DNA of 39,275 nt. Source: a virus. Below are positions 19,968-39,078 of the stretch, one piece after another. The translations under genes were made by a program, and so were the position numbers. The stretch lies in the IMG/VR virus record IMGVR_UViG_3300044825_000438, positions 1-39,275 of that record; one strand, given 5' to 3'. Position 1 is the first letter of the stretch. Each line of letters opens with the position of its first letter. The notes under the pieces were generated by a model, which was given only the letters and a program-made list of their open reading frames with translations, searched no databases and had not been told where the DNA came from.

Positions 19968-22900
19968 GTGGCTGGCACAAACGACAATCAGAGACTGCTG
20001 GATGCCCTAAGGAATGTGGGCAGCACTGCTACATCGGTGTCACAGAATAAGCGGTACACACCACCGGTGAATAAGGTTGCTGCAAGCGTAAATGATGCAC
20101 GGTTGCTTGCACTTCGTGCAGCACCGCAAATGGCGGACCAAATCAACGCTGTGGCTGCCGGGAAGGTGCAGCCTTCTGGTGCGTTGGGTACGGTTGGAAA
20201 GTTGTTGATTGATAACCCGATATCGAAAACGGTGTTGGGTGGTTTGACGATTGTTGATACGCCTCGCAGGGCGATTATTTCTGGCGTTCGTGAACTTGTG
20301 GATGCGGTGGATAGTGACCCACGGACACAAGCGTCGTTCTCCGAGTTCTTCAACCAAGCGAAGGATGTGAGATACGGGTTTGGTACGGCGTTCCCGATGA
20401 AGGGTTGGGGTGGACGGGTCGTTGGTTTCTTGGGTGATGTGGCATTGGACCCGTTGACGTATGCAACATTCGGTGCGACCATTCCGAAGAATGTCGCCGT
20501 CAAGGGTGGTTTGTTTGCTGGTCAGTCTTTGCGTGGCGCTCTTGGTGTGAAAACTTTGGCTGGTGCCGAAGGCAGGTTCGCTTTGGCTCGCATGGCAAAG
20601 GTCATGGGTGCGACGGATGATGTTGTGCGTGATGTGGCTGCAAAGGGACGTATTGCGTTGCCGAAGCAGATTGCAGACAACATGGGTATCAAGCGTGCAG
20701 GCATTTACTATTTCGGCACACGAGTGCGTGTGCCTTTGTCTGGTCCGATTGCAGATGTTATTCAGCGTGGTTTGGTGAAGACTCGACTCGGGTTTCTTTC
20801 TACCGACATGGGTCAGAGGGTTGGCAAGAAGTTTGCTTTGCGTGGCACAAGGCCGGGTGTTGACACGTCGGCTCAACGCTTTGCGTTGGCGACTGGACAG
20901 TTGTCACCGGAGCAGGCTGGTGCGTTTGTTGGTGAGTTTGCTGCACAGGACATTGAGCGTGGTGCACGCAGTTTTGCGATTGACCGTGCCATCAAGTATT
21001 CACGACCTTTGTTCGAGGACCAAGAAGTTGAAGCGGTTCGTGGAAGCGTGTACAGGCTGCTGGACACCCCACAAGCAAAGTGGGCGGAGTTGGGTATCAA
21101 TCCGTCTCCGGCAGAGTTGCGTGCCTACGAAAAGATTCGTCCCGTGTTCGAGCAGATGCATGCTGATGTTCGTGCAGCGTTCCAGAGTATTGACCCAGAG
21201 TTCCAGTTAGGAAAGATTGATGACTATCTGCCGCACATGGCGACAGATAATGCGTTGAAGTTGATGGCGGATGAAGCCTCACCGTACGCACAGGACATCA
21301 GAAAGTATTTGACCGTAAACCAGACGGATAATGCTTCGTCGTTCCGTGCACGTAACTTGAGTGCTGGTTCGGATTGGTTTGGTCAGGATGGCAAGTTCCC
21401 TGCGCTGACACAGAAGGATATTGATGGTGGTGTTCAGCGTTTGAATCAGTTGTTCCGTGAGCGTACGGGTCTTCAGTATGACTTCTTTGAGACTGACATC
21501 AAGCGGATTATGGAGCGTTATGCCGGGTACTACGGGCAGCAGATTGGTGTGTCCAAGTACATGGAGGAGTTGTTCAAGTCTGGTTTGATGCAGACTGCAA
21601 AGGAGGGAATCGAATTCAACGAGTCTCTTCTTGACATTGTGAACGAGTCTGTGAAGCGTGCAACCAACGTGATGAGCGCCTCTTACAAAGAGGCGTTCGA
21701 CACGGGTCGTGAGTTGTCGACAATTTTCGGTGAAGTGTTTGATTGGGCAACGAAGAAGAAGGCTACGGTCACAAGGCCGGTTGGTCCTTTGCAGCAGGAG
21801 GTTGATGGGCTGAAGGAAGTGCTGAAAGGCATTCCGCCTGTTGAGGTTGCTGCGGCACGTTTGGAGAGTGCGCAGGCAAAGTTGGAGATGGTCAAGCAGC
21901 AGATTCAGGATGCTTGGATTCAGTTTGAGCGTCAGTTTGATGAGCAGTCTGCTTATCTGCAGATGATTAAGCAGCAGCATGATGACTTGTATGAAGCGCA
22001 TCAGAAGGTTTCTGACACGCTTGCTGCTCTTATCAAGGAGTACCCGGATGCTTTGAGTGATGATGCTATTGAGGCACGCACGAAGGGGCTTCGTGACCAG
22101 ATTGAGAAGTTGAGGATGGAGATGGACACGCTTGACCGCAAGGTTGTGCGTGTTGGTCGCAACTGGGAAAGCATCATTGAGAAGCAGGACAAGTTCATTG
22201 ACAACTTTGCCAAGTATTTGAGTGACCCGCTGATTCACACGAAGAAGAAGGGTTTGCGTCAGTTCGACATTTTTGGCACTCCTCGGTTTGCTCAGCGTGG
22301 TGAAATGTGGACTGGGTTGAAGAAGAAGCAGGGTGAGAAATTGTTCTCGTCTTGGGGCAGCCCGAGTGCTGCACCTGATGCGAAGGACCTTCGTAAAGCG
22401 TTTGACCCGAATAGCGAGTTCTCTGTGAACGAACTGAGTTCAATGAGCATTCAGGAAGTGCGAGAGATTATCTCTGGTGGTTTCTCGTCTATCTCTGATT
22501 TGCGTAGTTTGCGTAAGGCTGTGAACTGGCTTGTGGGTGCTGACGTTGTTCGCAACGGCGGTATTGTGCCAACCGATGCCGACTTCTTTGGTCGCTTGGA
22601 GCGCTTGAAGAAGTTGATGAACTTGGCTAACGATGTTGAGAAGGAGTTCGTTGGTGGTGGCAAGGCTGTTGGTGCAGCCGGTAAAACGCAGATTGAAGAG
22701 TTGGCTACTGCTGTTGCTGCGCAGAACGATATTGAGGCAACAATCAAGAACATCGTAAGACAGATTGACGAGAATGGCGATGAACTTGAAGCGTTGATGG
22801 AGAAAGGCATCATGGCAACCCCCGAGGAGGGGTTGCGCATTCGCCAACTTGAAAAGGCAAATGCCGAATTGGTTGCCAGAAAGAACATGGAAAACATTCG

Positions 22901-25900
22901 ATACGAAAGAGCGGTTCGCACGGTCGAAGTGATTTCCAGCAAGCAGGAAACCGTTCAGCGTAAAGAGGCGTTCAAGGTTATTACCGGCAACAACTTCCGT
23001 GAACTAGCACAGGACCTGTCTGACGCAGCGTCCGAGTATTACTATCACTCGCAGGTTACAGCGATGTTCAAGTCTGTTGCCGAGGAGGCTGCATCAGTCG
23101 GCTTGGTGCCGACCGAGCAGATGTACAACGCTCTTGTTGCTCATGTGTCTAGGTTCGATTTGGATTTGGCACAGAACATGGTTCAGAGCATTGACCAAGC
23201 AGAAACGATTATGCGTGCGGTTCGTGACAGGGTTAGCGCATACACGGGACCGAACAAGAGTGCGTACCTTGTGAACGAGTTCTTTAACATCTTCGACAAT
23301 CTGGAGCGCAAGGCTGAGGCTGACATTCTTCGTGAAGTGTTCCCGGAGATTGAGGGCGTTATCTACAAGAGTCAGGCTGGTTCTCTGCGCAAGGGTCGTG
23401 CGCTGTTCCTGAACGAGGGTGGCGACGAGATTGCTTCACAGATTGATGCTGCGATGCGTCAGTTTGAGATTCCGTTTGCTCGGGGCGAGTCACCTGTTGC
23501 GCCATTGGATGTCACGCCTCGCAAGGCTGCGAAGCGTGTGCGACAGGAGCGCATGGGTGGAGAAGAGTTCGCCGCCCAGATGGAAGAGTTCGGTGCGCTG
23601 AGCGAACGAGATGTTCGCTCGCTCGGCTCAGAGACAGCAGACTTTGATTATCGTTCCGGTGTCATCGCACGAAACATTGATGTTATCAAGACGAGGCTTG
23701 AACGTACTGACTTGTCTCCTCAGGAGCGTCAGACGCTTGAGGCAATCACAGATAAGTATGACAAGGCGATGGTTCGTATTGCGAAGCGTCGCAAGGATAC
23801 GAATCGTCGGTTGAAGCAGTTGACTGGCGCTGCCAGCAACCGCCAGAACGAGCGCATCTTTTCCAACATCATCAAGAGTGGTGATGCTTTTGGTATTGCT
23901 GGTTCGTTGGGCAAGGCGTTCAATGGTGGTCAGTATGCGATTGATTCGTTCTTTGCCGATTTGTTGGGTGGCAACAAGTTTGATGTGCGTCTTGGTTATA
24001 CCCGTGAGAAGATTATTGGTGGCAAGATTCGTGAGGTTGAGCCTGCCGCAGAACAGTTCACGAACGTGTTTGAGAATGAGGCTGGCGAACTCATAGATTC
24101 CGCTGGCAATAAGTTGTCGAGCAACTTGGAAATCATCGATCCAGAAACTGGTCAACCGATTCCGGGTTCATCTCCGGCAAAGGAAACCAAGCCAAGCGTT
24201 CTTGTGCGTCGCAGAGACTCGTTGATGTCCAAGATGTATGACCGTGCTGCCGCACGGTACAGCAAACTCCGTTCGCTTGCCGATGACGCAGAGTTCATTC
24301 CAACGGTGCAACTGCGTGAAGGAACATTGAACTCGAAGGGTGATGCTGCTTGGGTGTTCTCGGACACAATCAAGGGTCCGAATGCGTACGCCAACCAGTT
24401 GGAACTGTATGTGAACGACCTCGAGCGCCGCATCAAAGTGTTGAAGCCGCTGCAGAGTGAAATTAAGCGTGAGGAAGGCAAGTTGAAGACTGCTGCCGGT
24501 CGTGTCGCTGAAGCGAATTTGACGGAGGGGCAGAAGAGTTTGTTGGCTAAGAGGCGTGCCGCCGCCAAGCGTGCACAACGAGAGTTGGATGAGTTGACTG
24601 GTAGCGAGTTGCATTTGCGTGCGTTGGAACGCAACAAGTTGAACAACTTCATGTACCAGTTGGCTGCTTTGAAGCCCGAAGAGGTGTCGAGAATCAACTG
24701 GGGTCTGGCGAGCATGGACTTCGGTTTCCCGGTCAGCCGCAGTGAAGTTCTTTCCGTGAACGAGTTGATGATTAAGGTTCAGGAAGAGAACATTCGCAAG
24801 TTGACGAAGCAGTTGGAAAACATCCAGCAGATGTCTCCACGTATCTCGACGAAGTCTCTTCGCACTCGCATTGCTGATGCGAATGCTGAAATCAATCGTT
24901 TGCGTGGTCAGATTCAGGCTGCACGTGGTCGGGCTCCAACCGACTTTGGTTTCTCTGCGGACGAGTTTTCTTCGCTGTGGGCGAAGGAGTACACGCCGCA
25001 GGAGATTGGTGCTTTGCGTACAGAGTATGCGAAGTTGAATAGCGAGTTGAATGCTCGTGTTGGTCAGAGGGCCACACCTGTGTACGAGTATTGGACTGCT
25101 GAGAAGATTGGTGAGAATGACGCCGCTATTGCGGCTGTCATGGAGCGGATGCAGGCAATCAACTCTGAACTGAATCAGGCTACATCTCGTGACATGGCGT
25201 TGAAGAAGGTCAAGTTCTTGTTTGACCAGTTTGAGACACCAGAGTTCCAGATTGCGATTGGTGCTTCGAAGCCGAATGCTTCTGTTGAAGCGGACCGTGC
25301 TGTTAGCAGGTTCTTGCGTGCACAAGGGGTCAAGGACTCTGCGTACAGGACTAATGCTCGTCGTGCTGGGCTTGCTGACATCTATGATGCTTCGCCTGAG
25401 GCTTTGCATCTTGATGAGGTTGAGCAGGCTAAAGAGGCAATCAGGTTGGCTGAGGAGACCGCTGAGGGGGTGTACTCACGCAAGAAGCGTTTGACTGCTG
25501 TTCGTGACCAGATTCGTGAGACGATTGCTCTGAAGCGTCGTGAGGTAAAGGACCTTGAGATTGGTCGCAGCATCAGCGAAATCAACGACATCTTGACCGG
25601 TGCATCTGAGGTGACCGGCAAGAAGGTTGGCAGGGTCACGAAGCAGGAGCCGTTGAAGACGGCGAAGGAAGCGAAGAAGGCTCTCGGCAGGGAGGTCAAG
25701 GCTGAGCGCCCAGAGTTGTTCAAGCGTGATGAGGCGTTCTTTGGCACTCAGAAACAGTTGCTTGATAACGAGTTGGATGAGTTCCAGATGCGTCGCCGTG
25801 ACATTGTTCAGCAGATTGCGAAACTGGAGTTTGATGTGCTTGCCGATAGGCAGGCTCAGTTGGATGCACGTGAAGCAATCAAGATTCTGCAGAGCATCGG

Positions 25901-27812
25901 GGACCGTCAAGCCGCTGTGCTGGGCTTGCCGTCCGCATCAAAGATTCGTGACCGTTTGACTGCTTCTGCGGTTCTTGAGAAGCAGATGATTGCGCTTGAA
26001 GAAACTGGTGCTAAGGCTGTGGCGAAGAGCGACAAGTTGGCTGCGACGCTTGCCACCCGCCAGAAGGCGGTGGACAAGGCTAAGGCTGCGTTTGACCTGT
26101 CGAGCACAATGCGTGCTCCGACGGAGGCGAAGTTGGAAAGTGCGCAGCGTGTTCTTGCTGAGACCAAGGATTTGGCTAAGCGTAATGTGAAGATACGTAA
26201 TGGCATAAGCAAGAAGGATGCTGCGTGGACTGAGGGCATGGACGAGTTGATTGCCGATGCCTCGTACATTATGCCGTTGATTGAGGGCACGGAGTTTGAA
26301 AAGCCGATGCGTGATGCCTTGGCTGATTACATTCGTGTCAAAGCGATGCTGCAGCAGAACCTGTTGCCGTTGGATGCCGCAACTCAGGAGAAGCGCATCC
26401 TTGAAGGTATCCAGAACATGGTTGCGACCGATGCTGATGAGGCGTTGCTGAACATTAGAAGGCTTGGTGCCCAGCCTGTGTCCGCCGGTGGTCCAGCAGG
26501 TATCGCTCATGCCGTGAATATCACGAAGTCCTTTGATGAAGGATTCGTGCAGTTGAGCCGCTACTTCCCGAATGTTGGTGTAAAGAAGGAGTTGGCTGAG
26601 TTGGTTCAGAACGTGCACAGGGCGCAGGACCCAGCAGTTGTGCGTGAACTGAACAAGTGGCTGTCTAAGTACACGAGGTTCTTCAAGGGTTATGCGACAC
26701 TCAGCCCGGGCTTCCACATTCGCAACGCAATGTCGAACGGCTTCATGCTGTTCGCTGCCGGTGGTAACCCGAGGTTCTTGGCGGATGGTTTGAAGTTCTC
26801 GCAGTCGTGGACTAACGCTTCTCGCCGTGGTGTCCAGTTTGAGAAGTGGTTGACTTCTGTTCCGCAGGCGCAGCGTGAAACGGTGCGTCAGGCGATGATG
26901 GCTGCTGCCGCAACTGGTGGCGGTATGACCGATGAGGCTCTCAGTCAGGGTGCGTTGTGGGGAACCAAGACCTCGAAGAAGGTTGGTCAATGGATGGAAC
27001 AGCACTCACGGTTCCTGTTGGCTTATGACGGTGTTCGTAGCGGTATGGACATGAATACGGCTGCTGCTCGTGTTCGCAGGTATCTGATTGACTACGAGAA
27101 TGTTTCTGGTGCTGACCAGTTGTTGCGTCAGATTATTCCGTTCTGGATGTGGACGAGTCGTAACTTGCCGATGCAGATTACAAACATTTGGATGAACCCG
27201 AAGGCTTATCAAATCTACGGAAGCATCAAGCGTAATCTTCAGGAGGACGACGAGGACGTTGCCGTCCCGTCGTGGATGCGTGAGATGGGTGCATTCAAGT
27301 TGCCGTTCGGCAAGAACTGGTATGCGACACCAGACTTTGGTTTCAATCGCATCAATCAGGACATCGAGCAGTTGCGTGACCCTGTACGGTTCGCCAGCAA
27401 CCTGAACCCGTTGCTGCGTTTGCCCATCGAGTTGATGGGTAACCGCCAGTTGTACTCTGGCAGACCGTTCTCCGACCAGCCTGTTGAGGTTTCTGGTGGT
27501 GTTGCATCAATACTGCAACCGATGCTCGAGGGTCTCGGGTTCGGTGAGACTGGACCTACCGGCAAGAAGTTTGTGGACGACAGGGCTTACTATGCTTTGC
27601 GCAGTTTGATTCCGACGCTCTCGCAAGCAGAGCGTCTCATCCCGTCAACACCAGAGTATCAGCAGCGTGGCATTTTGAATCCGCTTCTCGGCTACATCGG
27701 TGTGCCGGGTCGTCAGGTTACGCCACAAATGGAAGAAAGTGCAATTGCTGCGATTCAAGCACAGTTGCGGGAGATTGCCCAGCGAGGCAAGACACTTACG
27801 GAAGGAGAGTAA
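19968..27812 (+). CDS. Giant internal virion/ejection protein
   Basis: 2614 residues, one fifth of the genome, with no stop or frame break. The N-terminus (about residues 150-190) contains FLGDVALDPLTYATFG, common in large ejection proteins of actinophages. The middle (roughly 640-2180) is dominated by long charged coiled coils. The C-terminus holds FFKGYATLSPGFHIRNAMSN near 2237-2256 and RQIIPFWMWTSRNLPMQITN near 2385-2404, a pair of motifs recurrent in large podovirus internal proteins. It probably forms the ejected core, like T7 gp16, and may span the envelope. No lysozyme or protease site was recognised. GTG start, with AGGAAGTAGG upstream. Confidence 0.8.
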   Translation: MAGTNDNQRLLDALRNVGSTATSVSQNKRYTPPVNKVAASVNDARLLALRAAPQMADQINAVAAGKVQPSGALGTVGKLLIDNPISKTVLGGLTIVDTPRRAIISGVRELVDAVDSDPRTQASFSEFFNQAKDVRYGFGTAFPMKGWGGRVVGFLGDVALDPLTYATFGATIPKNVAVKGGLFAGQSLRGALGVKTLAGAEGRFALARMAKVMGATDDVVRDVAAKGRIALPKQIADNMGIKRAGIYYFGTRVRVPLSGPIADVIQRGLVKTRLGFLSTDMGQRVGKKFALRGTRPGVDTSAQRFALATGQLSPEQAGAFVGEFAAQDIERGARSFAIDRAIKYSRPLFEDQEVEAVRGSVYRLLDTPQAKWAELGINPSPAELRAYEKIRPVFEQMHADVRAAFQSIDPEFQLGKIDDYLPHMATDNALKLMADEASPYAQDIRKYLTVNQTDNASSFRARNLSAGSDWFGQDGKFPALTQKDIDGGVQRLNQLFRERTGLQYDFFETDIKRIMERYAGYYGQQIGVSKYMEELFKSGLMQTAKEGIEFNESLLDIVNESVKRATNVMSASYKEAFDTGRELSTIFGEVFDWATKKKATVTRPVGPLQQEVDGLKEVLKGIPPVEVAAARLESAQAKLEMVKQQIQDAWIQFERQFDEQSAYLQMIKQQHDDLYEAHQKVSDTLAALIKEYPDALSDDAIEARTKGLRDQIEKLRMEMDTLDRKVVRVGRNWESIIEKQDKFIDNFAKYLSDPLIHTKKKGLRQFDIFGTPRFAQRGEMWTGLKKKQGEKLFSSWGSPSAAPDAKDLRKAFDPNSEFSVNELSSMSIQEVREIISGGFSSISDLRSLRKAVNWLVGADVVRNGGIVPTDADFFGRLERLKKLMNLANDVEKEFVGGGKAVGAAGKTQIEELATAVAAQNDIEATIKNIVRQIDENGDELEALMEKGIMATPEEGLRIRQLEKANAELVARKNMENIRYERAVRTVEVISSKQETVQRKEAFKVITGNNFRELAQDLSDAASEYYYHSQVTAMFKSVAEEAASVGLVPTEQMYNALVAHVSRFDLDLAQNMVQSIDQAETIMRAVRDRVSAYTGPNKSAYLVNEFFNIFDNLERKAEADILREVFPEIEGVIYKSQAGSLRKGRALFLNEGGDEIASQIDAAMRQFEIPFARGESPVAPLDVTPRKAAKRVRQERMGGEEFAAQMEEFGALSERDVRSLGSETADFDYRSGVIARNIDVIKTRLERTDLSPQERQTLEAITDKYDKAMVRIAKRRKDTNRRLKQLTGAASNRQNERIFSNIIKSGDAFGIAGSLGKAFNGGQYAIDSFFADLLGGNKFDVRLGYTREKIIGGKIREVEPAAEQFTNVFENEAGELIDSAGNKLSSNLEIIDPETGQPIPGSSPAKETKPSVLVRRRDSLMSKMYDRAAARYSKLRSLADDAEFIPTVQLREGTLNSKGDAAWVFSDTIKGPNAYANQLELYVNDLERRIKVLKPLQSEIKREEGKLKTAAGRVAEANLTEGQKSLLAKRRAAAKRAQRELDELTGSELHLRALERNKLNNFMYQLAALKPEEVSRINWGLASMDFGFPVSRSEVLSVNELMIKVQEENIRKLTKQLENIQQMSPRISTKSLRTRIADANAEINRLRGQIQAARGRAPTDFGFSADEFSSLWAKEYTPQEIGALRTEYAKLNSELNARVGQRATPVYEYWTAEKIGENDAAIAAVMERMQAINSELNQATSRDMALKKVKFLFDQFETPEFQIAIGASKPNASVEADRAVSRFLRAQGVKDSAYRTNARRAGLADIYDASPEALHLDEVEQAKEAIRLAEETAEGVYSRKKRLTAVRDQIRETIALKRREVKDLEIGRSISEINDILTGASEVTGKKVGRVTKQEPLKTAKEAKKALGREVKAERPELFKRDEAFFGTQKQLLDNELDEFQMRRRDIVQQIAKLEFDVLADRQAQLDAREAIKILQSIGDRQAAVLGLPSASKIRDRLTASAVLEKQMIALEETGAKAVAKSDKLAATLATRQKAVDKAKAAFDLSSTMRAPTEAKLESAQRVLAETKDLAKRNVKIRNGISKKDAAWTEGMDELIADASYIMPLIEGTEFEKPMRDALADYIRVKAMLQQNLLPLDAATQEKRILEGIQNMVATDADEALLNIRRLGAQPVSAGGPAGIAHAVNITKSFDEGFVQLSRYFPNVGVKKELAELVQNVHRAQDPAVVRELNKWLSKYTRFFKGYATLSPGFHIRNAMSNGFMLFAAGGNPRFLADGLKFSQSWTNASRRGVQFEKWLTSVPQAQRETVRQAMMAAAATGGGMTDEALSQGALWGTKTSKKVGQWMEQHSRFLLAYDGVRSGMDMNTAAARVRRYLIDYENVSGADQLLRQIIPFWMWTSRNLPMQITNIWMNPKAYQIYGSIKRNLQEDDEDVAVPSWMREMGAFKLPFGKNWYATPDFGFNRINQDIEQLRDPVRFASNLNPLLRLPIELMGNRQLYSGRPFSDQPVEVSGGVASILQPMLEGLGFGETGPTGKKFVDDRAYYALRSLIPTLSQAERLIPSTPEYQQRGILNPLLGYIGVPGRQVTPQMEESAIAAIQAQLREIAQRGKTLTEGE

Positions 27813-28848: not shown

Positions 28849-29008
28849 GGGTTGTTCCATTCTCAACATGTATAAATCTGGTCGGTATCCCATTCTCGGA
28901 TACACCTTGACCAATCTGGGCTCTGCCAAATCTGGTCGCAAGAACTTCTGCAACTTCTTCAGGAGTGACCGCAACATCAAAACCCACGGTTATTTGCCAA
29001 GTTCTCAA
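28835..29008 (-). CDS. Small hypothetical protein
   Basis: 57 residues from a TTG start that has TTGGAG nine bases upstream; ATG at 29017 is an alternative with poor spacing. WQITVGFDVAVTPEEVAEVL reads as a beta strand then a helix, a plan frequent in short phage proteins. It competes with the 5' extension of the following gene, which uses another frame over the same bases. Confidence 0.5.
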   Translation of the reverse strand: MRTWQITVGFDVAVTPEEVAEVLATRFGRAQIGQGVSENGIPTRFIHVENGTTHEQR

Positions 29009-29816
29009 TGAAATCATCTCCAAGTTCCAAACCGAACGTGTTGTCATCCAGCATTAGTGCCACAACACAATAGCCGACAATGTCCACCAAAGCATCCTCG
29101 TACGGTTCGGCTTGTGCCTGCCGCTTCTTCAGATTCCTAAGCCGTTCAATCTTGTCGCTGAGGCGAACAAGGATGCCGAAGTGACCGAACTTCTCGATGT
29201 TGCCATGACCGTAGTCGTTCTGTTTGCGACCGAGCAGGTTCACCATGTCGTCGTTGTCCCACTTGCGTAGATACTTGAGTTCGTTGATTGCGGATGATGC
29301 GATGCTTGTCCAGAAGATTGGGCTGAGTGTTTCTTCCTGCACCGTCTGCGCTCCGATGTCACGCAGCCGTGCGATTGATTCAACATTCATCTGCTGCGGG
29401 TTCTTGGACATTGACGATAGGTGGTCAACCCATTGTGCTGCCGATTCGTTCCATGTGCTTGCCACTTGTACTCTCCTTCTGATGATTGGGTGCATGGTTA
29501 GTAGGTGCTTGAGTTTTTCGTATGCGGCGTTCTTCAAACGCCATGCGTGAGGCTTGGACACGCCGAGGCGTTGTCCGAGTTCTTCGTACGAAATCATTTC
29601 GCTGTTGACTGCGTTCACAATGAACTGGTCTTGCTCGTCTAGTTGCTCGATGCATTGTGCTACGGCTTCTCGCATCGGCTGTAGTTCAATGACGGATTCG
29701 ACGGTGTCTTCTCCGATGCCAGCCATCATCAACGCCTCGATGGGCGTTTCTGGTCGGCGGTGCCCACGCATCGTTTCGATGTGCATGGGACTCAGGGAAG
29801 CGTCTTTATTAGCCAT
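28977..29816 (-). CDS. Sigma region 4-like HTH fused to Nmad1/DUF1599-like domain
   Basis: 279 residues. Residues 58-106 (LDEQDQFIVNAV, then ISYEELGQRLGVSKPHAWRL) match sigma-70 region 4, the helix-turn-helix that reads -35 elements. Residues 195-262 (KQNDYGHGNIEKFGHFGILV, RLSDKIERLRNL, EPYEDALVDIVGY) match a phage domain I know as DUF1599/Nmad1, an all-alpha MazG-like fold linked to nucleotide modification. The middle part (110-190) is helical and unassigned. No sigma region 2 is present, so it cannot be a full sigma factor. It may be a transcription regulator coupled to nucleotide metabolism. Confidence 0.72.
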   Translation of the reverse strand: MANKDASLSPMHIETMRGHRRPETPIEALMMAGIGEDTVESVIELQPMREAVAQCIEQLDEQDQFIVNAVNSEMISYEELGQRLGVSKPHAWRLKNAAYEKLKHLLTMHPIIRRRVQVASTWNESAAQWVDHLSSMSKNPQQMNVESIARLRDIGAQTVQEETLSPIFWTSIASSAINELKYLRKWDNDDMVNLLGRKQNDYGHGNIEKFGHFGILVRLSDKIERLRNLKKRQAQAEPYEDALVDIVGYCVVALMLDDNTFGLELGDDFIENLANNRGF

Positions 29817-34141: not shown

Positions 34142-34558
34142 CTAACCGAGATTCCATGGATTCCATCCCTTTCCGTAACTGTCTTTGGCGTAGTTGTGAA
34201 TGTGCAAAGCGGCAAGCAGGTTGGTCGCTGGGTCAAACAAGTCGGCTCGTTTCTTGAGCACACCCCGTTCTCTCAGCCACCTAGACCAGCCACCGTTGAC
34301 CTGCGTCAACCCGTACGAGCCACTCATCGGGTCGTCAGGGTTGTGCACATTCGGTTTGCATCGTGACTCTTTCCACATGACATAGTCCAGCGTCCAGATG
34401 TCTTGTGTGCGCCAGCCCACTTGCTTGGCTGTGCTCCACCACATCGGACACAATGCCCAGCCCGGTACGTGAACTGTGGGTTGGGCTTGGATAGCAGAAG
34501 CGGGGGCTGTCGCCCCCGCCACCACGATTGCTGCTGCGAATAGTGCCTTGCGTATCAC
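34142..34558 (-). CDS. Secreted lytic transglycosylase-like protein
   Basis: 138 residues. Residues 1-24 form a clear signal peptide (RK, then AAAIVVAGATAPASA, cleavage after ASA). The mature part has YVMWKESRCKPNV with the catalytic Glu of the SLT fold, then SGSYGLTQVNGGW, and a closing LLAALHIHNYAKDSYGKGW. It should act on peptidoglycan outside the membrane. GTG start within AGGAGGTAACAGGTG, a near-perfect ribosome site. It lies in the regulatory arm, far from the endolysin, so a role in superinfection exclusion or wall access is as likely as lysis. Confidence 0.78.
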   Translation of the reverse strand: MIRKALFAAAIVVAGATAPASAIQAQPTVHVPGWALCPMWWSTAKQVGWRTQDIWTLDYVMWKESRCKPNVHNPDDPMSGSYGLTQVNGGWSRWLRERGVLKKRADLFDPATNLLAALHIHNYAKDSYGKGWNPWNLG

Positions 34559-34785: not shown

Positions 34786-35050
34786 GTTGCTTCGCTCTCT
34801 TTCTCGGTGGAGTACCGACTGTTAGCAGGACACCACCGTAGATGCCTGAGGCTTTAGTTTGCTTGCCGTAATCTAGGCATGCTTCCGTGTGGGGACAGGT
34901 GGCGCAGACACCACGAGCCAACGCACCGTGTTGGCGTGGGCTACGACCCTGACCCTTTGTTGGATGCCACCAGTTTACTGGCAAACCCTTACATTTAGCG
35001 GTTTCCATCCATGTCCGGTCACCGATGTATTCGGGGTAGAAGTCAGACAT
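34772..35050 (-). CDS. WhiB-family transcription regulator
   Basis: 92 residues. Four cysteines at 20, 49, 52 and 58 (AKCKG; CATCPHTEAC) coordinate a 4Fe-4S cluster in this family. GIYGG at 69-73 and the basic tail RKRAK after it are the hallmark turn and DNA-contact region. WhiB proteins bind the primary sigma factor and are restricted to actinobacteria and their phages, so this fixes the host group. It may redirect host RNA polymerase to phage promoters or block the host's own WhiB. ATG overlaps the previous stop by eight bases. Confidence 0.92.
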   Translation of the reverse strand: MSDFYPEYIGDRTWMETAKCKGLPVNWWHPTKGQGRSPRQHGALARGVCATCPHTEACLDYGKQTKASGIYGGVLLTVGTPPRKRAKQHANS

Positions 35051-35558
35051 CTGCACCACCGTTCAGACGCTGACCGATGATGGTCAGCACACGCTCGGCA
35101 ACCTCGTTGGCAAGGTTCGCAGTCTGCTTCTCTACAGCCTGTCCAATAGCCAATAAGAAGTCGGTAGAAACCTGCAAGTACTCTTGCACAAATCGTTGCA
35201 TAAGCATCTGAAATCTGGTATTGCGCACCAAACGGTTCTGAAACTCGTCGTTATCAAACGGATTATCCGAACCGTAGTTGTCTAGCAACTCTTCCACAAT
35301 CTCGCTGGCAGAGAAGTGCCTAGACACCAACTCCGACATGTACGAATAGTCAAGTGATTCCATCAGCCAGTTACGAACAGACCGAACATACTCAGGTGTA
35401 CTGATAGCGGTCTGAAGTTCCTCAGCCAAGTGAACCTTGACTTTCTGCTGGATAGTTTCCATCAACGACGAGTCAACAGCCTCCATGATGGAAGCGTTAG
35501 ACAAGTCCAGTTCCATGCCCAACGGGGCAGAGATTGTTTGAACAGTAATCTTTGGCAT
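35043..35558 (-). CDS. Hypothetical helical protein
   Basis: 171 residues, mostly helical and acidic, with no Cys. Segments include SASEIVEELLDNYGSDNPFD near 85 and a C-terminal amphipathic helix. I do not recognise the family. GGAG lies nine bases before ATG, after an A/C-rich leader like those of the genes upstream. Confidence 0.7.
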   Translation of the reverse strand: MPKITVQTISAPLGMELDLSNASIMEAVDSSLMETIQQKVKVHLAEELQTAISTPEYVRSVRNWLMESLDYSYMSELVSRHFSASEIVEELLDNYGSDNPFDNDEFQNRLVRNTRFQMLMQRFVQEYLQVSTDFLLAIGQAVEKQTANLANEVAERVLTIIGQRLNGGADV

Positions 35559-35588: not shown

Positions 35589-36548
35589 TTACTTGCTTCG
35601 CTTATTGGCGATTGACATTGACTCTATCTCAAAGTTCCATTGCTCAACATCAACATACTGATGCAAAGCAACCCAACACTTGCACGATGTGTGACCACAG
35701 TACAAGCAGCAGTTGCAGTACGAGCAATGCGTGTGGATTGTGTCCGCAGGCACAGTCTCAGCACACGAGCATTGGTAGCACTCGATGAGGTCGGTTTGGG
35801 TGTCAATACGAGTAGTGAACATGTCCATCTGCTCGTACATCATCTCATAGTCCAACTCGGCCTCATCGTCCCACGATGAGTCGTCTTTCTTGATGCTGAC
35901 ATCCCAGCCACCATCCAACTCGGAGTAGTGACCACCCCAACCAGACGAATACGAACCGTAGCCGTAGTCGTGTGTCGTGTAGGTGTACACAGTCGGCTTG
36001 TACGAACTGTTAGACCACCACATGTCGTCAGCCCAATGACCGTCAGACTCGTTGATGATGTAGAAGTCGTACTTGGCATCAGGGTTGGCAGTTAGGAACA
36101 CCAACTTGGAACCCTTAGCCCACGACGACAACTTGTTGTAATAGTCGTCGTCATCAAGAGCACACACGCCACCGATGTTCGGCATGTAGTCTTCGGCAAA
36201 CACCTTGGTGTCAGACCGAGTGTCAGACGGCGACATCTTGACAGGCAAGATACCGTTGTGAGCCATGACGGTGTTACGGTCGCCGCCTAGCAAGAACGGG
36301 TGACAGTTGTCAATGGTCTCGGAACCGTGAGTAGCCCAACGGAAATGGAAAGTAGCAGGACCCTGCAAGGTCTTGCGCATTTCCAGAAACTTGTCGGCAA
36401 CTTCTTGGAAGTTCATGCTGTGAGCACGGACTATGCGATGCCTGTCATGGATGGCGAAGCCAAAGCCGTCCGGATTGTTCCGTGCAGCAATAGCAAACTT
36501 GTCCATGTCAGGAGTGACATAGTCGGGGATGAATGTTAGTAGACACAT
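35589..36548 (-). CDS. Class II glutamine amidotransferase
   Basis: 319 residues. Cys2 directly after Met is the Ntn nucleophile. RNNPDGFG (23-30), FHFRWATHG (67-75), MAHNGIL (95-101) and SDTRSDTKVF (108-117) are the expected glutamine-site motifs. It releases ammonia from glutamine. No synthase domain follows; instead there is a Tyr/Gly/Trp-rich linker (about 165-225) and a C-terminal block with ten cysteines (257-291), probably zinc-binding. AAAGGAG upstream of ATG. An operator-like palindrome sits 45 bases before the start. The amidoligase gene is immediately upstream, which suggests the ammonia or a related amide is passed to it. Confidence 0.85.
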   Translation of the reverse strand: MCLLTFIPDYVTPDMDKFAIAARNNPDGFGFAIHDRHRIVRAHSMNFQEVADKFLEMRKTLQGPATFHFRWATHGSETIDNCHPFLLGGDRNTVMAHNGILPVKMSPSDTRSDTKVFAEDYMPNIGGVCALDDDDYYNKLSSWAKGSKLVFLTANPDAKYDFYIINESDGHWADDMWWSNSSYKPTVYTYTTHDYGYGSYSSGWGGHYSELDGGWDVSIKKDDSSWDDEAELDYEMMYEQMDMFTTRIDTQTDLIECYQCSCAETVPADTIHTHCSYCNCCLYCGHTSCKCWVALHQYVDVEQWNFEIESMSIANKRSK

Positions 36549-36592
36549 GTTGTGTCTCCTTTCTGTTTGTTGTTTGTTTATGTATTTGGATT

Positions 36593-36609
36593 TGATAGAC
36601 GGTCTATCA
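36593..36609. promoter_or_regulatory. Palindromic operator-like site 1
   Basis: TGATAGAC-G-GTCTATCA, a perfect 8-bp inverted repeat with one central base. It overlaps the stop codon of the amidoligase gene and precedes the amidotransferase leader by 45 bases. Read leftward it contains CTGATA-like bases that could also form a -35 box. Confidence 0.75.
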
Positions 36610-37635
36610 GAGTGAGTTCCGTGCGTCGATACGGTCGGCAAGCACCTTGTACTTGTCGTTCTGTGTATCAAGCCACGAACGGAACGAACGGTACTCCAAG
36701 CCATGCTTGGTAGTCATGTCGTTGATGGTAAGTATGTCGCTGTACTGGTGTACGGCATCACACATCTGCAAAGCAGCCTGCACGGTCTCGGGACGCAACG
36801 AGGGGCGGAAGAACCGCAACTCGATGGTGTCACGATTACGCATGTTGATAGCAGTGAACCTGTCCTCGTTACGCCTACCCATCTTGATGAACTTAGGCAG
36901 GCTCATCTCCATCTCAACATCACCGCTAGTCCAGTTGTTGTATGCGTTCATGAACTTACCTTTCTCCCATGTCGCATAACGCTCAGAGTTACGACCAGCG
37001 AACTGAATGAGTTGGTTAGCGTTCTTGAATAAGAACATAACGAACACAGTCAAGTGCTTCTCGCTAGTGAACGCAGTACGACTGAGATGGATGTGCAGTC
37101 CACAAGTGGAAGCGTTCCACGACTTGAAGCCATGACGACGCAACTTGGTGATGCCCTCCCATCGGAAGTGGTTCATGTAGAACCCGAGCGTTGCAGGATG
37201 AGACACAATCTCAAAGCCATGGTTCAGCGAACCATCCTCCTTGAGATAAATGACACCCTCATGACCGAAGCCGTAGTTCACCGTGGAAAGCAAATCATCT
37301 GCGCCCTCGTCACGGTCAGCCATGCCAGCCTCAACCTCCAACTCGATGCCCATGTACAACGGCGTGAGATACTTCTTCTCATCCGTGTACTTGACATAGT
37401 ACGAAGCAAGCCCGTCGTCATGTAGGAAACTAGGCGACGGCTTGTACCCGTAATCGTGCACATAGTCGCTCTCGTTCTCACGCTCGGCGCACCGGTCTTC
37501 GTAATCGTAGTGGCAGTCGCCGCAACGATAGTTGTTGTTGTCGTCGTAGTCAGATGTGTACACATCATCCTCGTACAACCCCACACCGCACTCATTGCAC
37601 GAATACGGGTACTCTTCTTCTGTATTGCTTGGCAT
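36607..37635 (-). CDS. Amidoligase (glutamine synthetase-like fold)
   Basis: 342 residues. The phage amidoligase family, of the glutamine synthetase/GCS fold, is shown by MGIELEVEAG (95-104, metal-binding glutamates), LKEDGSL (131-137), GFEIVSHP (140-147), CGLHIHLS (178-185) and TIELRFFR (270-277). Such enzymes form an ATP-dependent amide bond between a carboxylate and an amine. The N-terminus adds a zinc ribbon (Cys13, 16, 38, 41) in a Tyr/Asp-rich segment that may bind the target. AAGGAGG ribosome site. Operator site 2 lies 60 bases upstream. Substrate unknown. Confidence 0.88.
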   Translation of the reverse strand: MPSNTEEEYPYSCNECGVGLYEDDVYTSDYDDNNNYRCGDCHYDYEDRCAERENESDYVHDYGYKPSPSFLHDDGLASYYVKYTDEKKYLTPLYMGIELEVEAGMADRDEGADDLLSTVNYGFGHEGVIYLKEDGSLNHGFEIVSHPATLGFYMNHFRWEGITKLRRHGFKSWNASTCGLHIHLSRTAFTSEKHLTVFVMFLFKNANQLIQFAGRNSERYATWEKGKFMNAYNNWTSGDVEMEMSLPKFIKMGRRNEDRFTAINMRNRDTIELRFFRPSLRPETVQAALQMCDAVHQYSDILTINDMTTKHGLEYRSFRSWLDTQNDKYKVLADRIDARNSL

Positions 37636-37694
37636 TTGTAATCATCCTCCTTCGGATGTTGTTTGTTGTTTGTTTGTATTTGCTTACAGCCAAC

Positions 37695-37711
37695 TGATAG
37701 ACGGTCTATCA
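37695..37711. promoter_or_regulatory. Palindromic operator-like site 2
   Basis: Identical 17 bases to site 1 (TGATAGAC-G-GTCTATCA). Lies in the 147-base gap upstream of the amidoligase gene, followed in the minus direction by an A/C-rich leader and a strong ribosome site. The rest of the gap shows nothing recognisable. Confidence 0.8.
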
Positions 37712-37782
37712 ACTGGACATCTTACGCATGTAACGCAGAAAGCGCCACATACGAAACCAACTACGAGCACGAACGAAAGCAC

Positions 37783-37992
37783 TCACTCGTTGCCCGCCCA
37801 TCTACTCGGGTGAACAAGCGAGAAACCTTGCCTCGTATCACCGTACACCGTGTTCTGCTCCAACTCTAATCGGATTTCGTCGTGAACACCGTCGTAGAAA
37901 TAACGCAAGCGAGAAACCTTGCGCACATCACGACACCATTCACCAACACCGACGGCACAGTCGGGACAACTTGACCGAATGGGGTCATTCAT
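37783..37992 (-). CDS. Small zinc-finger protein
   Basis: 69 residues. CPDCAVGVGEWCRDV with a His about twenty residues on resembles the short phage zinc fingers of the C-x2-C-x7-C...H kind that bind nucleic acids. The remaining sequence is charged. ATG overlaps the upstream stop, with AAAGGAG nearby. Specific role unknown. Confidence 0.65.
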   Translation of the reverse strand: MNDPIRSSCPDCAVGVGEWCRDVRKVSRLRYFYDGVHDEIRLELEQNTVYGDTRQGFSLVHPSRWAGNE

Positions 37993-38249
37993 TTCTGTTC
38001 TCCTTTGCTATTCGGGAATTGGATAGTCATGTCAAACCACGACGTACTCTCGGGAACGCTTGGTAACGGTTTCACCACCTGCCACGCAACCCTGTCCGAC
38101 CAACCCTTAGGGTCAGTCGTCATCTCGTATGCCGTCACATACAAGTACGCATGGTCAGTATGAATGTTGATGTCCCAACACCCAGCATCAACCCAATCAT
38201 CAAGATTGTAATTGGGTGCAACTGATAGGTCTCTATCAACGGCGTCCAT
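37989..38249 (-). CDS. Hypothetical protein
   Basis: 86 residues, beta-rich, Trp- and Asp-rich (WVDAGCWDINIHTDHAYLYV). No family recognised. The start forms TGATG with the stop of the upstream membrane-protein gene. Codons 4-9 of this gene coincide with operator site 3, so either the true start is further in or the site lies within coding sequence. Confidence 0.6.
   Translation of the reverse strand: MDAVDRDLSVAPNYNLDDWVDAGCWDINIHTDHAYLYVTAYEMTTDPKGWSDRVAWQVVKPLPSVPESTSWFDMTIQFPNSKGEQK
38223..38238. promoter_or_regulatory. Palindromic operator-like site 3
   Basis: TGATAG-GTCT-CTATCA, 6-bp arms and one base shorter than sites 1 and 2. It lies within the first codons of the gene at 38249, the only site that falls inside a predicted gene. 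Confidence 0.6.
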
Positions 38250-38395
38250 CAGAACACCACCGACACAATCAGTTGTACGCACATGAGCCCCATTGTGAAC
38301 GCCCACAGCGCCACAATACGGTCACTCTTGTTGGCGTTGCGTGGCTCCGTGAGCCAACGCAGAACGCCATCAGCAAAGCGTTGATAATGTTTCAT
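38249..38395 (-). CDS. Small single-span membrane protein
   Basis: 48 residues. A polar, basic N-terminus (MKHYQRFADGVLRWLTEPRN) is followed by one membrane segment at residues 29-47 (ALWAFTMGLMCVQLIVSVV). AAAGGA lies seven bases before ATG. Too small for domain assignment; a host-takeover membrane peptide is possible. Confidence 0.65.
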   Translation of the reverse strand: MKHYQRFADGVLRWLTEPRNANKSDRIVALWAFTMGLMCVQLIVSVVF

Positions 38396-38488
38396 GTTTC
38401 TATCCTTTGTGTATCTGTAGTTCCGCACCACAGAATTGAGCCCACCAGCCAGAGGGAAAGCCGGTGGACTCTCACCGCATTGCGGATT

Positions 38489-38504
38489 TGATAGATGTCT
38501 ATCA
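38489..38504. promoter_or_regulatory. Palindromic operator-like site 4
   Basis: TTGATAGA-TG-TCTATCAA including one flanking base each side (16-base core). It abuts the stop of the gene at 38506 and lies about 95 bases upstream of the membrane-protein start. A second small inverted repeat, CCGCA-T-TGCGG, is at 38475-38485. Confidence 0.75.
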
Positions 38505-38505
38505 A

Positions 38506-38979
38506 CTAGAAACCGAGAGCCTCCAACACCTGCTCGGTCTGCTTAGCCGACAAACCAGCCTTACCACAAGCAGAACGAACCTTACGAGAGGTAACGGACT
38601 GCTTCTTCTCCTTACGAGACGGCTTGTCCGCAGTCTTACGCTTGCTCAAAGAGCGAGCGTAACTACGCAAATCGTCAATGTTGGCATACCCATACCCAAC
38701 CTCAAACTCAAGATGCTCAATTACATCTTGCGCAACACAGTCACGCCCAACCTTGCCCATGACAATTAGACAGTCACCGACATAGTTGCGGATGGTATGC
38801 ATCGCCGTGTAATCCGTCTTAGATGCCGACGCATAAGCAGAACGATTACTATTCCACTTATCACGACACTCAACGGCGGCGTTCAGCCAACCCTCAAGAG
38901 CCTTGCGAGAACCTCCCGCAATAGTCTGTTCGTGTGTTGCAAAGTTGCTCCGCTTAGCGGTCGCCTTGTTCTTCGCCAA
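38506..38979 (-). CDS. Hypothetical basic protein
   Basis: 157 residues from a TTG start with AGAAAGG nine bases upstream. An ATG further up at 39075 would put operator site 5 inside the gene, so I reject it. Two helical parts flank a basic linker (LSKRKTADKPSRKEKKQSVT); the C-terminus (KVRSACGKAGLSAKQTEQVL) looks like a small helical DNA-binding domain. No family recognised. It could be the regulator that reads the palindromes; this is a guess from its place and charge. Confidence 0.65.
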   Translation of the reverse strand: MAKNKATAKRSNFATHEQTIAGGSRKALEGWLNAAVECRDKWNSNRSAYASASKTDYTAMHTIRNYVGDCLIVMGKVGRDCVAQDVIEHLEFEVGYGYANIDDLRSYARSLSKRKTADKPSRKEKKQSVTSRKVRSACGKAGLSAKQTEQVLEALGF

Positions 38980-39044
38980 TGTAGTTACCTTTCTATGTTT
39001 GTGTTTGTGTAGGTGAACGAATGTCCACCGCAGAACGCACGAAC

Positions 39045-39061
39045 TGATAGACGCTCTATCA
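39045..39061. promoter_or_regulatory. Palindromic operator-like site 5
   Basis: TGATAGA-CGC-TCTATCA, 7-bp arms and three central bases. Lies in the 99-base gap upstream of the TTG-started gene, about 66 bases before its start, and 18 bases after the stop of the preceding small gene. Confidence 0.75.
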
Positions 39062-39078
39062 ACCCATGCGCTCATGCG

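Follow-up and report, generated by a model that had tools for sequence, protein, structure and literature searches.

An adjacent amidoligase and glutamine amidotransferase with putative metal-binding modules, fixed and co-evolving in a clade of uncultured phages

Two neighbouring minus-strand genes, AMI and GAT, predicted to encode a glutamine synthetase (GS) superfamily amidoligase and a class II glutamine amidotransferase (GATase), are a fixed, co-evolving part of a clade of uncultured phages. The pair was analysed in a virus record of 39,275 bases, the whole of which is referred to below as the window. This type of pair is known from earlier prediction; what sequence comparison adds is that here it is fixed in its clade, co-evolves and has putative metal-binding modules of its own (Table 1). 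Conserved residues and structural models tip the balance slightly towards AMI and GAT acting as a two-subunit, glutamine-dependent amide synthetase that would form a primary amide on a carboxylate of its substrate.

Table 1. Features of the AMI-GAT region, in window coordinates
Feature	Coordinates	Strand	Details
GAT, class II (Ntn) glutamine amidotransferase, predicted Cys2 nucleophile	35589-36548	-	PF13230, 319 aa
GAT C-terminal 8-Cys module	35676-35780	-	C257-x2-C-x14-C-x2-C-x2-C-x2-C-x4-C-x-C291-W
GAT leader hairpin	36593-36609	-	7 bp, loop CCG; overlaps AMI stop codon; then ACAAAC-rich leader, AGGAG
AMI, predicted GS-superfamily amidoligase	36607-37635	-	PF12224, 342 aa
AMI catalytic core, residues 89-342	36610-37371	-	E98xE100, K132xD134xS136, E142, H181xH183, R259, E272-L-R274
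AMI N-terminal zinc-ribbon-like module	37513-37599	-	C13-x2-C16 ... C38-x2-C41; alignment, 35 sequences
AMI leader hairpin	37690-37716	-	12 bp, two G.U, loop CCG; then ACAAAC-rich leader, GGAGG
Looser fifth copy	38223-38238	-	TGATAG AGAC CTATCA; in 5' part of mechanical ORF 37989-38306
Third strict copy	38489-38504	-	TGATAGA CA TCTATCA; just past stop codon of gene 38506
Longest copy	39033-39073	-	19-bp hairpin, five G.U, loop GCG; leader of gene 38506

Genome setting, pairing and co-divergence

Pfam scans of the window indicated the gene content of a podovirus-like phage. The plus strand encodes a P22/SU10-type portal, an SU10-type capsid and a terminase, and the minus strand a DnaB helicase, a TOTE-type primase, RusA, a PD-(D/E)XK nuclease, WhiB and a lysozyme-like transglycosylase; presumably, WhiB points to an actinobacterial host. 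AMI and GAT lie at the upstream end of a leftward minus-strand block in which the replication genes are also found. As the pair is conserved alongside these, it probably matters for infection. A 171-aa protein is encoded immediately after GAT (35043-35558, minus strand), with 29 relatives at only 22-37% identity and a weak DUF7487 match, and it is a possible third component of the system. Elsewhere on the minus strand, the product of a gene at 28977-29816 matched sigma-70 region 4 and, further along, weakly DUF1599 (nucleotide modification associated), in both cases below the cut-off. On the plus strand, the gene at 1633-2673 encodes a collagen-like repeat protein (PF01391, E 4e-23) that probably belongs to the tail or a fibre, and a single 2614-aa ORF (19968-27812) lies beside the virion genes; in the compared loci, most of which end before this region, this ORF had only two partial matches, both weak (27-31%). 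PADLOC returned no defence-system match and Rfam no credible match.

AMI was located directly upstream of GAT in all 45 loci of a first scan, with gaps of -13 to 84 bases, and directly 5' of GAT in every further viral locus with enough upstream sequence. Because these counts began from GAT, DnaB, encoded a few kilobases from the pair, served as the seed of another scan. Both AMI and GAT were present in 27 of the 27 loci with room, defined as at least 7.5 kb upstream. The earlier note had held that homologs that never co-occur would speak against a joint system; in both scans they did co-occur. Distances between AMI proteins were correlated with those between GAT proteins at r = 0.92 (30 phages), and a partial r of 0.79-0.82 was retained after removing DnaB or the nuclease, as compared to about 0.4-0.5 for the transglycosylase control gene. 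Adjacency by itself can produce co-divergence, and that of AMI and GAT may be the source of part of the correlation. In MW202803, a more distant relative (terminase 53%, DnaB 46%), profiles found no AMI-GAT pair, meaning that the pair is fixed within a clade and not across the whole group. A cellular origin of the pair was rejected; a GTDB scan gave four weak matches, and the one near an amidoligase is a prophage.

Enzyme domains and cysteine modules

AMI passed the PF12224 (Amidoligase_2) cut-off of 22 narrowly, at 25.9 bits, and the motifs on which an amidoligase had been proposed in the earlier note (GIELEVE, GFEIVSHP, CGLHIHLS and TIELRFFR) were all confirmed. The predicted metal- and ATP-binding residues (ExE, E, HxH, R and ExR) were assigned to GS positions by motif. 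E98, E100, K132, D134, E142, H181, H183, R259, E272 and R274 were invariant in all 35 aligned sequences, so that the loss of such residues, which had been named as grounds for doubt, was not observed in the alignment. The AlphaFold model of AMI (pLDDT 89.9) matched YbdK (Z 11.6, 3.9 A, 215 aligned) and glutamine synthetases (Z ~11) best and also resembled plant glutamate-cysteine ligase and GmaS. By these residues and this model AMI is a protein of the GS fold with apparently intact catalytic residues, in agreement with the amidoligase identity first proposed. AMI and GAT each strongly match a PHROG family of unknown function. A viral scan with AMI alone returned zero relatives, the peptide patterns lying in variable stretches, and a search of the window with AMI found one copy only. 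In some relatives another amidoligase, which looks intact, is encoded about 1.2 kb upstream of AMI (locus L008, 5596-6444; also L010, L025 and L037, with matches near L169); it lacks the zinc ribbon and has the motifs GFELELE, KRDGS, GFEIISQP, GFHIHIN and TVEVRCF.

The match of GAT to PF13230 was likewise narrow, at 23.6 bits for a cut-off of 23. As class II glutaminases need a Met-Cys start, with the cysteine at position 2, the start of GAT was placed at 36548, where a Met-Cys start is preceded by AGGAG and where relatives also begin; the mechanical ORF reaching 36704 is too long and was rejected. Residues were compared for an N-terminal Cys nucleophile, the Arg and Asp that hold glutamine and an Asn-Gly oxyanion hole, and C2, R70, N98-G99 and D113 were found to be invariant in 35 of 35 aligned sequences. 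The AlphaFold model (pLDDT 83.6, with a low-confidence stretch at 189-229) was most similar to the glutaminase domain of GlmS (Z 13.5, 3.5 A, 168 aligned). EgtC was matched at Z 13.3 and the PurF glutaminase domain was also similar, whereas sequence profiles matched GlmS and PurF and not EgtC. The glutamine-hydrolysing Ntn domain claimed from Cys2, FRWATHG and AHNG is thus borne out, as both motifs were confirmed, PF13230 was matched above its cut-off and the model has a GlmS-like fold. GAT is not a whole GlmS enzyme; it scored 26.1 bits against a glmS cut-off of 418, the isomerase domain is absent and the 8-Cys tail ends the protein.

In the ribbon of AMI, C13 and C16 were each conserved in 34 of 35 sequences and C38 in all 35, while position 41 was Cys in 31 and His in 4, a swap that is expected of a metal ligand. 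A similar ribbon was found in loci L047, L048 and L189, and one precedes the amidoligase core in gp105 of Marvin, in gp06 of the methylotroph phage MEP402 and, in multiple copies, in the spring phage ctgrD200. The tail of GAT contains 10 cysteines, of which 8 (C257, C260, C275, C278, C281, C284, C289 and C291) are conserved in relatives and two (C262 and C280) are not. This 8-Cys tail occurs clade-wide and in mycobacteriophage Marvin, and is absent in MEP402 and a Bacteroidales prophage. It had no Pfam match and only chance matches in the PDB; profile matches to S27e and RNF31 domains (E 0.12 and 0.74) are too weak to count as evidence and were set aside. The earlier note had described both blocks as extra. 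The 10 cysteines at the C-terminus of GAT and the four-Cys ribbon at the N-terminus of AMI are indeed present, but they were not added in this genome, the ribbon being widespread and the GAT tail a clade marker shared with Marvin. Given this distribution, the modules are of long standing in these enzymes; they may bind zinc, contact one another or recognise a common target.

Leader hairpins

A palindrome, TGATAGACCGTCTATCA, precedes each gene, at 36593-36609 (GAT) and 37695-37711 (AMI). With its centre left free, TGATAGA-N-TCTATCA has 4 strict copies in the window as compared to 0 expected, and all five hairpin copies fall between 36.6 and 39.1 kb in the minus-strand block, most of them in intergenic positions. 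The real start of gene 38506, which follows the longest copy, is probably near 38978. Folding z-scores were -2.39 for the AMI leader, -4.67 for the copy at 39033-39073 and -0.84 for the GAT leader. In relatives other hairpins, often with four-base loops, occupy the same place and are followed by an ACAAAC-rich stretch and a ribosome site. Across 12 distinct AMI leaders none of the six pairs tested is broken in any sequence; compensatory changes are seen, one G.U pair is invariant, and the covariation score was reached by none of 500 shuffles.

The compensatory changes and the invariant G.U pair favour an RNA structure, and the leader hairpin is better explained as an RNA element than as an operator, perhaps with a role in processing or mRNA stability. 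Binding of a dimeric repressor became less probable because the centre varies between 2 and 4 nt, the arms extend via G.U pairs and compensatory changes are found in relatives; at this lowered weight the operator reading is kept for the window's own GAT leader, given its fold z-score. The observation that each gene has its own copy of the palindrome therefore stands, while regulation via a shared operator is not supported, since the hairpin evidence favours RNA. The leader plan of hairpin, ACAAAC-rich stretch and ribosome site is common to the window (36593-39073, minus strand) and loci L034, L057, L098 and L118. Several relatives also have a GTGGGGGC-GCAA-GCCCCCAC hairpin, with a GNRA loop, immediately before the ribosome site.

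Candidate reaction and comparison with known systems

In the proposed reaction GAT, with Cys2 as the nucleophile and R70 and D113 holding the glutamine, would hydrolyse glutamine to glutamate and ammonia. The ammonia would then pass to AMI, which would use ATP/Mg to phosphorylate the substrate carboxylate, and attack by ammonia would yield the primary amide. We infer that the reaction runs towards amide formation. Dependence on ammonia is favoured because a GS-type ligase joining two organic partners would need no glutaminase. The substrate is probably a protein or peptide, and the zinc ribbon of AMI and the 8-Cys tail of GAT would most likely join the subunits and/or present a macromolecule as substrate. 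As the pair heads the leftward block holding the replication genes, action early in infection may be expected. The synthetase reading draws further support from Bacteroidales phages, whose quite different genomes also pair members of these two enzyme families. What is retained of the regulated amide-forming system suggested earlier is a pair that is intact by sequence, co-occurs and co-diverges, while regulation by a shared operator is no longer supported. A dedicated phage system for protein or peptide amidation, in which zinc modules on both subunits would bring the complex together and hold a single macromolecular target, is a more specific reading that we put forward tentatively and regard as rather doubtful. 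If the amidation reading is true, the pair would place a side-chain or C-terminal amide mark of a kind not known in phage infection and would be an obligatory part of the early programme of this phage lineage.

The main doubt on ammonia transfer comes from EgtC, which shares the fold of GAT but acts as a hydrolase, its pathway likewise employing a GS-like ligase. Because the class II glutaminase fold is thus also that of a gamma-glutamyl hydrolase, GAT may not be an ammonia donor. The two enzymes could then oppose each other with no ammonia transfer between them, AMI attaching a gamma-glutamyl or other acyl group to an amine and an EgtC-like GAT removing or trimming it. This is considered quite improbable; the GAT model fits EgtC nearly as well as GlmS and the AMI model is similar to plant glutamate-cysteine ligase and GmaS, but the sequence profiles of GAT point to GlmS and PurF and GAT carries RWATHG, HNG and SDT motifs like those of GlmS. 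Amidation could also be directed at the cell wall, the pair acting on a carboxylate of a peptidoglycan precursor (D-iGlu or meso-DAP) and blocking superinfection or tuning lysis. The carboxylates of actinobacterial walls are natural amidation sites, and the lysozyme-like transglycosylase gene (34142-34558) stays near the pair in relatives. Wall modification has been suggested for the phiEco32 and LUZ24-like modules in published predictions, as quoted in PMC10580990, PMC11318856 and PMC11945000. However, the gamma-glutamyl cyclotransferases of such modules (PF06094 and PF13772) had no match in the 39-kb record, possibly a fragment, while control genomes did match; no ATP-grasp ligase was seen in Pfam scans of 30 window genes, the main ones; and the zinc modules suggest a macromolecular partner. 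PF14395 (COOH-NH2 ligase) matched neither the record nor any control genome. On balance, amidation of the wall appears unlikely.

Zinc ribbons often bind nucleic acid and the pair sits in the replication-gene block, both of which would suit amidation of a carboxylated base of phage DNA against restriction. A precedent is found in CmoX/CmoY, where CmoY is a phage amide ligase acting on carboxymethylcytosine and one cluster has its own glutaminase domain (PMC12783734). Nucleobase hypermodification by AMI and GAT is nonetheless very unlikely, as Pfam scans of the main window genes revealed no methyltransferase or other base-modifying enzyme and CmoY, an asparagine-synthetase homologue, differs from AMI-GAT in both fold and partners. 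The Bacteroidales pair, moreover, is among head genes and its GATase has no Cys tail. In these Bacteroidales phages and a Paludibacteraceae prophage the pair is inside the head operon (L102, 5031-6543; L184, L185, L187 and L188), between portal and capsid genes in L102, L185, L187 and L188 and on the capsid side in L184. Such a position would fit modification of a portal, scaffold or capsid protein in virion maturation, which is held to be just as remote for AMI and GAT, since the window clade and the OM43 phages have the pair with replication genes and in the window it lies on the opposite strand from the head genes. With head genes as neighbours in one group and replication genes in the other, context does not settle the substrate. 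The preferred reading remains a two-subunit, glutamine-dependent amide synthetase.

The fold of AMI and its ExE, HxH and E-x-R motifs are shared with YbdK and glutamine synthetase at an identity of ~10-14%. GAT has the Cys nucleophile, RWATHG and HNG in common with the glutaminase domain of GlmS, from which it differs by the missing isomerase domain and the added 8-Cys tail. Like the extended start-associated sequences (ESAS) of cluster K mycobacteriophages, which stand immediately before some of the phage genes (PMC3203893), the repeats of the window are inverted and lie upstream of genes; they differ in being short hairpins before ACAAAC-rich leaders, and the 13-bp SAS GGGATAGGAGCCC gave 0 matches in the window with up to 2 mismatches allowed.

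Among phages, amidoligase-GATase pairs have a scattered distribution, and annotation usually treats them as auxiliary genes or predicted modules for wall modification. That such pairs had been predicted earlier and that little is known of their biochemistry, as stated in the earlier note, is borne out; they are annotated in Marvin, LUZ24-like and OM43 phages, where wall modification or the synthesis of metabolites has been proposed, and no paper testing one biochemically was found, within incomplete literature coverage. As quoted in later papers, Iyer et al. (2009) predicted phage amidoligase/GATase operons, phiEco32 and LUZ24-like modules among them, in which the same two enzyme families are close together and to which a COOH-NH2 ligase, an ATP-grasp protein and a gamma-glutamyl cyclotransferase are added. 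The version in this clade is a plain two-gene one that lacks the cyclotransferase with which such pairs are usually found. The OM43 (Methylophilales) phages MEP401 and MEP402 also have an adjacent pair ahead of replication genes, with a Cys ribbon immediately before the amidoligase core, but their GATase lacks the 8-Cys tail and their amidoligase has a long N-terminal extension (PMC10580990). In Marvin (cluster S) gp105 and gp106, both annotated as 'glutamine amidotransferase domain', follow the same order of amidoligase then GATase, with a zinc ribbon on the amidoligase, the same 8-Cys tail on the GATase and a long hairpin before gp106. Identity is ~28% and 40%, gp105 has a C-terminal extension and the genome is otherwise different. 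As Marvin is culturable on M. smegmatis, this shared architecture makes the candidate amidation target, a question since 2009, directly testable.
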